Part shown: positions 60,446-64,000 of the stretch, one piece after another
Numbering within the stretch: the stretch's first letter is position 1
Layout: each line of letters starts with the position of its first letter
NCBI GenBank assembly: GCA_902809825.1
Contig: LR778114.1
Coordinates: forward strand, 372,001 to 436,000
Length of the DNA: 64,000 nucleotides
Origin: Candidatus Hydrogenisulfobacillus filiaventi
Lineage (GTDB): Bacteria > Bacillota > Sulfobacillia > Sulfobacillales > R501
Direction of reading: 5' to 3'
The notes under the pieces: model-generated
The model's input: only the letters and a program-made list of their open reading frames with translations
The model's database searches: none
Told to the model about the DNA's origin: nothing
Position numbers and translations under genes: made by a program

Positions 60446-60833
60446 GCTCTATCCCTCCTCCTGGGAATCCGGGATCCGGGGTCCGCCCCGCCGGAGGCGG
60501 CGCCAGAGGACTTTCCCCGTTGGCGGGGACCGCCAGTCCCGGCCCAGCCTGCTCCGGCGGAATCCGGCCCGCTGGCCGCCGCCCGCACGCGTCCCCCGCC
60601 GGGCGCGGCTTGGCAGCGGCACGATAATACAAATACTGGAAAAATCGCGTGACTACAAGCTGTGGGACAGGCGCGCCGGGGGAAGGTAGGGAAATGCATA
60701 AGCCTGTATTTATAGTTGTGGCAATGAATCCATATTGTACTTGAGGATTGGGCTGCGGTACCGTGAAGGCAGAGAGAGGTTGCGGACCGCTGAGGACAAC
60801 GACGGTCGCGCTGGCAAAGGAGGCCCAGGACAG
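60446..60833. other. Divergent region upstream of cbbX
   Basis: About 390 bases. The left half is GC-rich and contains only the ribosome site of the YVTN gene. From 60620 to 60760 it becomes much richer in A/T (for example TGTATTTATAGTTGTGG at 60705-60721 and CCATATTGTACTTGAGG at 60730-60746), so the cbbX promoter is likely there, though no ideal -35/-10 pair stands out. No gene is supported. Confidence 0.4.
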
Positions 60834-61754
60834 ATGGCGGAAGAAGCGGCTCTGGAAACCCCCGGCACCGGGGAACAGCCTGTGCTTGACTTTTCGGAGG
60901 TGCTGGCCGAATCGGGGGTGACGGGCGTCCTCGACCAGCTGGATCGTGACCTGGTGGGCCTCACGCCGGTGAAGACCCGCATCCGGGAGATTGCGGCCCT
61001 CCTGCTGGTGGACCGCATGCGGCGGACGCTGGGTCTGACGGCGCAGGCGCCGTCGCTTCACATGTCCTTCACCGGCAATCCCGGCACCGGCAAGACCACG
61101 GTGGCGCTGCGGATGGCCGAGATCCTGCACCGGCTGGGCTACGTGCGCAAGGGGCACTTGGTTGCGGTTACCCGGGACGACCTGGTAGGACAGTACATCG
61201 GCCACACTGCCCCCAAGACCAAGGAAGTGCTGAAGCGGGCCATGGGGGGTGTGCTCTTCATCGATGAGGCCTACTACCTTTACCGTCAGGAGAACGAACG
61301 GGACTACGGCCAGGAGGCCATCGAAATCCTGCTGCAGGTAATGGAGAACCAGCGCGAGGACCTGGTGGTGATCCTGGCGGGGTACAAGGACCGCATGGCC
61401 ACCTTCTTCCGCTCCAACCCCGGGATGCGTTCGCGGATTGCTCACCATCTCGACTTCCCGGACTACACAGCCGACGAGCTGGTGGCCATCGCCAAGCTGA
61501 TGCTGGCGGAGCAGCAGTACCGTTTCAGCCCGGAGGCGGAGGCGGCATTCCGCGAATATGTAGAGCGCCGGATGCGGCAGCCGAACTTCGCTAACGCCCG
61601 CAGCGTACGGAACGCGCTGGACCGTGCCCGCCTGCGGCAGGCCAACCGGTTGTTTGCCAAAGGTGGTCGGGTCACGGCGGAGCACCTCATGACCATTGAG
61701 CCGGAGGACATCCGCGCCAGCCGCGTGTTCCAGGAACCGGTCAGTGAGGCGTAG
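60834..61754 (+). CDS. cbbX: CbbX-type AAA+ RuBisCO activase
   Basis: 306 residues, the CbbX size. Walker [10 protein letters not shown] and Walker [12 protein letters not shown], with the characteristic [20 protein letters not shown] pore-loop region, [19 protein letters not shown] and [20 protein letters not shown]. CbbX removes inhibitory sugar phosphates from red-type form I RuBisCO using ATP. cbbL and cbbS are not in the window, so they are either further right or elsewhere. ATG 60834 has an AAAGGAGG site; an upstream in-frame extension is not favoured. A clear terminator follows. Confidence 0.9.
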
Positions 61755-61828: not shown

Positions 61829-63373
61829 TTACGCGGCGGGAATCAGCAGCTTGACCAGGATGCCTAGGATGGCGGCCAGCATCAGGCCCAGGGACCAGTT
61901 GCGTAAACTGGCCACCGCCTGTTCTAACCTGCCGAAGTTGGTCTGAACCTGCCCCTGCAGGGCCAGAAAGTCTGCTTTTAACGCCTGATGCTGCTGCTCA
62001 AAGGCTGATTGCAGGTCCTTCATTTGGGCCCTAAGAACGTCCTGCTGCCGGGCGACGTCAGCGCGCAGGGTGGTCTGGCCGCGCAGCAGTTCCTCCTTGA
62101 GGGCATCCTGGCGGGCGGTGAGGTCGGCGCGCAGGGCCTCCTGCTGGTTCTGGAAGGTGGTCTGGCCGCGCAGCAGTTCCTCCTTGAGGGCATCCTGGCG
62201 GGCAGTGAGATCGGCGCGCAGGGCCTCCTGCTGGTTCTGGAGGGTGGTCTGGCCGCGCAGCAGTTCCTCCTTGAGGGCATCCTGACGGGCGGTGAGCTCG
62301 GCACGCAGGGCCTCCTGCTGGTTCTGGAGGGTGGTCTGGCCGCGCAGCAGTTCCTCCTTGAGGGCATCCTGGCGGGCGGTGAGCTCGGCGCGCAGGGCCT
62401 CCTGCTGGTTCTGGAGGGTGGTCTGGCCGCGCAGCAGCTCCTCCTTGAGGGCATCCTGGCGGGCGGTGAGGTCGGCACGCAGGGCCTCCTGCTGGTTCTG
62501 GAGGGTGGTCTGGCCGCGCAGCAGCTCCTCCTTGAGGGCATCCTGGCGGGCGGTGAGCTCGGCACGCAGGGCCTCCTGCTGGTTCTGGAAGGCGGTCTCG
62601 CCGCGCAGCAGTTCCTCCTTGAGGGCATCCTGACGGGCGGTGAGCTCGGCACGCAGGGCCTCCTGCTGGTTCTGGAAGGCGGTCTCGCCGCGCAGCAGTT
62701 CCTCCTTGAGGGCATCCTGACGGGCGGTGAGGTCGGCGCGCAGGGCCTCCTGCTGGTTCTGGAAGGTGGTCTCGCCGCGCAGCAGTTCCTCCTTGAGGGC
62801 ATCCTGACGGGCGGTGAGGTCGGCGCGCAGGGCCTCCTGCTGGTTCTGGAAGGTGGTCTCGCCGCGCAGCAGTTCCTCCTTGAGGGCATCCTGACGGGCG
62901 GTGAGGTCGGCGCGCAGGGCCTCCTGCTGGTTCTGGAGGGTGGTCTGGCCGCGCAGCAGTTCCTCCTTGAGGGCATCCTGACGGGCGGTGAAGTCGGCGC
63001 GCAGGGCCTCCTGCTGGTTCTGGAGGGTGGTCTGGCCGCGCAGCAGTTCCTCCTTGAGGGCATCCTGGCGGGCAGTGAGATCGGCGCGCAGGGCCTCCTG
63101 CTGGTTCTGGAGGGTGGTCTGGCCGCGCAGCAGTTCCTCCTTGAGGGCATCCTGGCGGGCGAGAAACTCCACCTGCAGGGATTCGTGGCGTTGGGCCAAA
63201 TCATCCCGCCACGCCTGTTGGTCCTGGCGTAGGAACGCCATATCACTCATAAGCTCAGCTCTCAGGTTGTCCTGCTCACGGCGGATGTCCTCCAACCGCT
63301 GCAGAATCAGCCAGCTGACCGAAGCTTGTTCCTCCGGCTTTCCGGGCCGGTCGGGAGTGTCCGGCACGCCCAT
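61829..63373 (-). CDS. Tail-anchored coiled-coil protein with 29-residue repeats
   Basis: 514 residues. An N-terminal helix (SWLILQRLEDIRREQDNL) leads into twelve complete and one partial copy of a 29-residue repeat, LTARQDALKEELLRGQTTL + QNQQEALRAD (residues 71-440). A last helical part follows (LQSAFEQQHQALKADFLALQ) and then a C-terminal membrane helix (SLGLMLAAILGILVKLLI). It should form a very long rod anchored by its tail, with most of the chain on one side of the membrane. I do not recognise the family. ATG 63373 is preferred over an upstream extension because the extra part is Arg-rich and lacks order. The methylase gene lies upstream on the same strand, 165 bases away. Confidence 0.65.
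   Translation of the reverse strand: MGVPDTPDRPGKPEEQASVSWLILQRLEDIRREQDNLRAELMSDMAFLRQDQQAWRDDLAQRHESLQVEFLARQDALKEELLRGQTTLQNQQEALRADLTARQDALKEELLRGQTTLQNQQEALRADFTARQDALKEELLRGQTTLQNQQEALRADLTARQDALKEELLRGETTFQNQQEALRADLTARQDALKEELLRGETTFQNQQEALRADLTARQDALKEELLRGETAFQNQQEALRAELTARQDALKEELLRGETAFQNQQEALRAELTARQDALKEELLRGQTTLQNQQEALRADLTARQDALKEELLRGQTTLQNQQEALRAELTARQDALKEELLRGQTTLQNQQEALRAELTARQDALKEELLRGQTTLQNQQEALRADLTARQDALKEELLRGQTTFQNQQEALRADLTARQDALKEELLRGQTTLRADVARQQDVLRAQMKDLQSAFEQQHQALKADFLALQGQVQTNFGRLEQAVASLRNWSLGLMLAAILGILVKLLIPAA
62054..63163 (-). repeat. Tandem 87-bp repeat array (12.8 copies)
   Basis: Twelve full and one truncated in-frame copies of an 87-base unit. Copies differ at a few positions only (Gln/Glu after LLRG, Leu/Phe before QNQQ, Asp/Glu at the end), and identical variants sit next to each other, which points to expansion by slippage or unequal exchange. 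Because 87 is a multiple of three, long open frames appear on both strands; only the minus-strand one fits start, stop and membrane tail. Confidence 0.93.
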
Positions 63374-63538: not shown

Positions 63539-64000
63539 TCAGGGCCTGACCAAGGAGCGGGATGCCGGGACCGCCGGCTGAGGGTTCCGGCCGGGGAGCG
63601 GTTCCCCGCCCGACGGGTAATAGCTGGTAATCACGAGTTCCGTAATGGGTCCGCGGCGGTCGGCCCGCGCGTTAATGGTCCGGCGCGCCTGAATGCGGGA
63701 AATGACGAATCCGGCGTAAAGGTTCTCAAAAAAGCGGTCGGTGGGGTCGTTGTTGCGGGGGTCGGAATTGGAGATCATGACCCGGGTCCCGCGGGTCGCT
63801 GCCGCGCGGGCCCAGCTGGCCAGCGCCCGTTGTTCCTCCTCCCCGAAGGCGTCAGCGGCGTAGGCCGTAAACGCGGCGGTGGCGCCTAACGGCCGGTACG
63901 GCGGGTCGCAGTACACCCAGCTTTCGGCGTTCAGGAACGTCAGGGTCTGCCGGAAGTCACCGCTCAAGAGCGTGACGCCTTGGAGGACCCGGTGGACGGC
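63539..64000 (-). CDS. D12-class DNA adenine methyltransferase, 5' partial
   Basis: The C-terminal ~153 residues of a Dam-like N6-adenine methyltransferase. The sequence from the window edge reads RVLQGVTLLSGDFRQTL, then WVYCDPPYRPL with the catalytic DPPY motif IV, RVMISNSDP, and the end TINARADRRGPITELVITSY, typical of the D12 class. The frame is open at base 64000, so the start and the SAM-binding N-terminus lie outside. It may be a solitary methylase or part of a restriction or phage unit; nothing in the window decides this. The last ~20 residues are Pro/Arg-rich. Confidence 0.8.
   Translation of the reverse strand, partial: AVHRVLQGVTLLSGDFRQTLTFLNAESWVYCDPPYRPLGATAAFTAYAADAFGEEEQRALASWARAAATRGTRVMISNSDPRNNDPTDRFFENLYAGFVISRIQARRTINARADRRGPITELVITSYYPSGGEPLPGRNPQPAVPASRSLVRP

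Follow-up and report, generated by a model that had tools for sequence, protein, structure and literature searches.

A predicted membrane-anchored rod protein with a recently duplicated 87-bp array belongs to a class-restricted family with conserved ends and stalks of different length

Near one end of the analyzed window (the whole stretch of 64,000 nucleotides), the thermophilic and acidophilic bacterium 'Ca. Hydrogenisulfobacillus filiaventi' R50 carries a gene consisting largely of nearly identical 87-bp repeats, which raises the question of what kind of protein such an array encodes and whether the length of the repeated part matters. An initial reading based on the sequence alone had placed an array of twelve copies at 62054-63163, next to a DNA methylase gene, and suggested that the product is a membrane-tailed rod acting as a molecular ruler, spacer or scaffold. 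The array is present as described, but that interval is too short, since the gene runs well past it on both sides. The start at 63373 was picked by homology of the head region to a short paralogue and to proteins in other genomes. The features of the locus are as follows.

60831-61754, plus strand: CbbX-type AAA+ ATPase gene, a convergent neighbour (TIGR02880 above cutoff)
61829-63373, minus strand: rod-protein coding sequence, stop included; 514 amino acids, MGVPDTPDRPGKPEEQASVSWLILQ...ILVKLLIPAA
61841-61894, minus strand: predicted C-terminal transmembrane helix SLGLMLAAILGILVKLLI, residues 494-511, followed by PAA (hydropathy 2.46; compare the anchor consensus of the homologues, LGLLAKLLIPGA)
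61895-62065, minus strand: C-terminal stalk without repeats, residues 437-493, helical in the AlphaFold2 prediction
62066-62116, minus strand: partial 13th unit, residues 420-436, from unit comparison
62117-63160, minus strand: twelve complete 29-residue (87-bp) units, residues 72-419, from TRF and unit comparison
63281-63325, minus strand: head motif ASVSWLILQRLEDIR, residues 17-31, conserved across the class
63326-63373, minus strand: Pro/Gly/acidic N-terminal stretch, residues 1-16, predicted by AlphaFold2 to be unstructured
63539-64000, minus strand: 3' part of a Dam-family adenine methyltransferase gene (PF02086; TIGR00571 above cutoff), the whole gene being L099:10540-11571

Analysis by TRF identified the array at 62067-63161 with a period of 87 and 12.6 copies; matches amount to 97%, indels are absent and the score is 1966, as compared to only 73 for the second-best array of the window. 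In the minus-strand frame this bears out the twelve full copies of a 29-residue unit (consensus ARQDALKEELLRGQTTLQNQQEALRADLT) and adds the partial copy. Pairwise nucleotide identity between units was on average 95.6% (range 92-100%). Adjacent units differed at a mean of 2.5 positions, as compared to 3.8 when their order was shuffled (p=0.005), and the two GETTF units as well as the two GETAF units are identical neighbours. Since neighbours are more alike than expected from shuffling, the array has grown recently and locally, in agreement with the recent tandem duplication proposed at the outset. Nine sites vary in the array, four at codon position 1, five at position 3 and none at position 2. 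The GC fractions at the three codon positions are 0.82/0.38/0.90. Both patterns fit the minus-strand rod frame and not the antisense reading. The antisense ORF (62009-63232, plus strand) was rejected, being open only because the repeat contains no stop in that frame, with the codon-position pattern and homology against it. The substitutions in the array amount to five synonymous and five non-synonymous changes over 22 and 65 sites, respectively, a ratio of 0.34 based on few changes. A scan for promoters and terminators found none.

The structure of the protein was predicted with AlphaFold2. Without an alignment, two helical stretches were predicted for the rod protein, residues 18-196 and residues 204-510, the confidence being low (mean pLDDT 64, pTM 0.22); residues 1-20 had a pLDDT of about 45 and no helix was predicted before residue 18. 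A short homologue, predicted from an 8-row alignment, gave a single continuous helix over residues 13-106, with a pLDDT of about 82-94 over residues 21-100 and an N-terminus that was likewise unstructured. The two predictions are in line with the helical rod of the sequence-only reading. If the helix is continuous, the full rod would measure about 70-73 nm (492 residues x 0.1485 nm), of which the array would contribute 54 nm. The membrane tail that had been claimed is also present: an 18-residue hydrophobic segment with a mean Kyte-Doolittle value of 2.46 lies three residues from the C-terminus and corresponds to an anchor shared with the homologues. No signal peptide was seen in the rod protein, which together with a membrane segment ending at most three residues from the C-terminus suggests that the head and the rod are cytoplasmic. 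The rod protein is thus predicted to be a C-terminally anchored inner-membrane protein, the helix, the transmembrane segment and the cytoplasmic orientation all being predictions.

The 29 residues of a unit span eight turns of 3.625 residues each, close to the value of 3.63 for an undistorted helix (PMC4786415), so that the unit would give a nearly straight rod. The large hydrophobic residues of the unit peak at a period of 29/8 (p=0.017), but the hydropathy-weighted periodicity is not significant (p=0.44), indicating that the hydrophobic seam of this unit is weak. Several relatives whose units have 18, 21 and 25 residues show a clear seam. Coiled-coil oligomerization of the R50 rod is therefore plausible, with a stable oligomer not assured, and the description of the unit as heptad-like is only loosely right, 29 being four heptads plus one.

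Homologues were sought in 100 related genomes, using as queries both the complete protein and its ends outside the repeats. The homologues have in common an N-terminal motif VS(V/x)SWLILQRLDDL and a C-terminal membrane helix, while their middles are completely different. In the closest homologues, the residues W/L/I/L/Q/R/L/x/D/L of the head are invariant. Family members can be described by a head [ST]WLIL[QE]RL[DE]D that leads directly into a helix, a stalk with units of length 7a+11b, and a transmembrane helix that ends within about five residues of the C-terminus. The R50 rod protein has the head VSWLILQRLED (conserved motif SWLILQRLEDI), a unit of 29=7+22 residues and the anchor LGILVKLLIPAA. 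The same genome encodes a paralogue of 87 amino acids, whose stalk comprises only about 35 residues. This short paralogue precedes an apparent gerA-type spore-germination operon and lies beside an element that by eye resembles IS607, with a serine resolvase and a TnpB-like protein (L086:6006-8226, minus strand). Spore formation has not been observed in R50 (PMC10080006).

A profile built from 11 family members (A1) matched 53 of 154 class genomes at E<=1e-3, where the weakest matches include generic coiled coils, and about 35 of the 154 at E<=1e-10. In an even sample of 398 genomes from the phylum, four had matches at E<=1e-10, three of them inside the class and one, a related protein, outside it. 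The family is class-restricted, with almost none outside the class in this sample (one of about 380 genomes at that threshold). The named family loci come from genomes described by title as acidophilic or geothermal Bacillota metagenome genomes, including Sulfobacillus benefaciens AMDSBA1. A scan of the genome contigs with the full protein as a single sequence gave no matches because the search patterns fell mostly within the repeats, whereas the head and anchor profile succeeded. No relatives were found in phage records (tblastn with the full protein), nor in viral contigs and plasmids.

Pfam, NCBIfam and PADLOC contained no family covering the protein, all matches being weak coiled-coil ones. 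A weak match at cutoff to the spectrin-like SbsC domain (PF22360, E=1e-5) covers 22 residues inside the repeat, has no SbsC context and was taken as an effect of composition; weak matches of the GrpE, JAB and syntaxin type were rejected as coiled-coil noise, and the PDB profile matches as generic coiled coils. The family profile also weakly matched the C-terminal part of PDB 8qox_B, a 'Conserved membrane protein' (E=2e-4), likely reflecting shared architecture only. The proteins are therefore placed in a family that has no name and that the curated databases do not yet cover, although its architecture is of a known kind.

Several other proteins of similar plan were seen. A second branch (L132, L127, L104, L158 and others) has the head DHWGFYLLQAINRLDDKI or SSWGFHLLQEL and the anchor LQYWYWGTLIVIIVGFVTVLFTHP, follows the same stalk rule as the main family and occurs in several copies per genome. 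At least three family members lie within 12 kb on one 19-kb contig (L098; contig 55 of G006), forming a local paralogue cluster. A gene in another genome (G057, L017:1501-2073) has a different head, VNWEERYLSQIEAGIEDL, and about eight copies of an 18-residue repeat, RTELKQDIAELGGGQTSL. In two further genomes, the arrays of family genes are interrupted by runs of N (L090 in G033 and L102 in G018), suggesting that long arrays are probably under-counted in short-read genomes.

The unit lengths of the stalks follow a simple rule. At the protein level, 52 of the 80 anchor-bearing members had a detectable tandem unit, of 4, 7, 11, 14, 18 or 29 residues, and all 52 units were within 40 degrees of helix phase, as compared to an expected 30% for lengths of 4 to 40. 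At the DNA level, TRF reported arrays in 59 family genes, one of which was weak and out of frame (22 bp, with 17% indels). The 58 in-frame arrays had units of 7, 11, 14, 18, 21, 22, 25, 28, 29, 33 or 65 residues, all of which are sums of 7s and 11s; the genes are related and thus do not represent 58 independent events, but they span about 19 genera. Among the comparison arrays outside family genes, taken from the same loci and the window, only 5 of 20 had units that are sums of 7 and 11. In part, the in-phase lengths could have a mechanical origin in recombination among units of 7 and 11 residues that were already present, and not reflect selection.

Rod length, in contrast to the ends, changes between orthologues. 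In one pair of syntenic orthologues (G009 and G007), with flanks that are 84-91% identical, the rods differ by 35 residues, or five heptads, which align as 14+14+7. In a second pair (G063 and G147), from well-assembled genomes of one and three contigs, the flanking genes are 72-90% identical and the difference is 133 residues, or 19 heptads. Two more pairs of close relatives, for which synteny was not established, differ by 51 and 66 residues. The ends stay conserved as the length changes. Thus, rod length is not conserved, which argues against the ruler role that had been suggested and favours either a spacer or tether that tolerates different lengths or a stalk of neutral length.

The methylase is indeed adjacent and of the Dam family; it lies upstream of the rod gene in the same direction, with about 165 bp between its stop and the rod ATG. 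An all-against-all comparison of the genes lying up to 6 kb from the family member at about 40 loci, considering the 40 largest clusters, revealed no recurring neighbour and no methylase cluster. Recurrences were seen only in closely related locus pairs and in one scattered cluster of five loci without a fixed position relative to the rod gene. With no neighbour recurring across family loci, the methylase appears incidental, and neither it nor the CbbX-type gene is considered part of the rod system. A restriction-modification or defence system that includes the Dam methylase was likewise rejected, since the neighbourhood is not recurrent and PADLOC has no relevant model for the rod. The CbbX-type Rubisco activase gene has no Rubisco gene among its immediate neighbours. 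Just outside the window, beside the methylase, FliN-like, HD-domain and CheC/CheX-like genes were recognized by eye (L099:11906-14190, plus strand).

We consider the chances about evenly balanced that the protein is an anchored cytoplasmic helical rod, from a class-restricted family with fixed ends and an extensible stalk, that most likely serves as a length-tolerant spacer or tether. The C-terminal anchor would fix one end of the rod in the inner membrane, and the helix would carry the short conserved head, plus whatever the head may bind, away from the membrane. Tandem duplication and deletion would make the stalk grow and shrink, and only unit lengths that preserve the helix phase (7, 11 and their sums) would survive. 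Among the three roles suggested from the sequence, the spacer is thus the best supported, in a predicted and length-tolerant form; the ruler is disfavoured and the scaffold ranks low.

The close rival, though we think it rather unlikely, is that stalk length is neutral: the head and the anchor would matter, any in-phase helix could stand between them, and the R50 array would consist of tolerated recent duplications. The very different lengths of the orthologues imply that no particular length is needed, which suits a neutral stalk as well as a length-tolerant spacer. The short stalk of the same-genome paralogue, the syntenic differences of 35 and 133 residues and the identical adjacent copies, which mark the duplications as recent, are all consistent with neutrality. 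However, non-synonymous changes are depleted in the array (by the ratio given above, from few changes) and every family array preserves the phase, suggesting that the helix itself is under constraint.

It is improbable that the protein is instead a self-assembling scaffold or polymer, in which neighbouring rods pack laterally on the membrane into a lattice. Near-identical units could give regularly spaced lateral contacts, and long periodic helices often oligomerize. On the other hand, lattice proteins usually keep their axial repeats, whereas unit sequence and spacing vary between members of this family. A molecular ruler, in which the exact rod length sets a distance, is very unlikely: a long straight rod is predicted and coiled coils that act as spacers generally keep their length (PMC5082667), but between orthologues at one genomic position the length differs by as much as 133 residues, or about 20 nm. 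Still less credible is that the protein acts on the membrane as an XhlA-type haemolysin or holin. The order of a helix and a C-terminal membrane helix is similar, and of 11 members, 2 weakly matched PF10779 (E=1e-3) and 6 weakly matched phrog_1193 'hemolysin' (E=2e-4 at best), but no family member passed the PF10779 cutoff, the phage and viral collections held no relatives, and no holin or endolysin neighbour is conserved. Finally, short-read assemblies can mis-size long arrays, but we give almost no weight to an assembly artefact or a non-coding repeat, because the closed R50 genome (one contig of 2,570,337 bp) was assembled from Nanopore reads with Canu and polished with Illumina reads, the array of just 1.1 kb fits well inside the Nanopore read length, so that a collapsed, inflated or mis-sized array is unlikely, and the homologous protein ends, the codon-position pattern, the kept frame and the lack of indels between units speak for a coding sequence.

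Returning to the length-tolerant spacer or tether, it is possible, though we hold this tentatively, that selection keeps the ends and the helix phase while rod length drifts or varies quickly, which would make the rod an evolvable and possibly strain-variable trait of the inner membrane. As a rule, evolution preserves the length of long coiled coils, since length is what they function by (PMC5082667). If true, the family would be the reverse of this norm for coiled-coil spacers. The family also provides a natural series, with stalks from about 30 to about 460 residues between a constant head and anchor, which includes syntenic orthologues and two paralogues from the same genome and makes it possible to ask directly what matters: the length of the rod, the phase of the helix or just the two ends. 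A family that is common in acidophilic and geothermal Bacillota is hereby described.

Among the closest known systems are CCDC90/MCUR1 (DUF1640, PF07798), prokaryotic and organellar membrane proteins that likewise have a conserved N-terminal part, a coiled-coil stalk and a C-terminal anchor. Membership in this group was rejected on two grounds. No rod-family member reaches the gathering cutoff of PF07798, for which the R50 genome has no match at all, and the beta-layer motif [aliphatic]-A-T-K-[polar]-[DE] that starts the DUF1640 stalk (PMC4786415) occurs in only 1 of 85 rod-family sequences. Moreover, the rod-family head comprises only about 15 residues. In XhlA (PF10779), too, a short helix leads to a transmembrane helix at the C-terminus, whereas the rod family stays below cutoff, has no phage context and has stalks of up to 460 residues. 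The R50 genome has no PF10779 match, and the sole above-cutoff match among 61 genomes is in one without family members (G044). The coiled-coil arms of prokaryotic SMC proteins are the nearest precedent for phase-limited length change, in that they too tolerate only certain periodic changes (PMC5344682); the rod family differs in having neither ATPase head nor hinge, in its predicted membrane anchor and in a total length that is not conserved. Golgins and similar coiled-coil spacers and tethers also combine a long rod with a C-terminal membrane segment and a functional motif at the far end. Coiled coils vary less in length than other parts of proteins, and such spacers are typically length-conserved (PMC5082667), whereas in the rod family it is the ends that are conserved, and the length varies.
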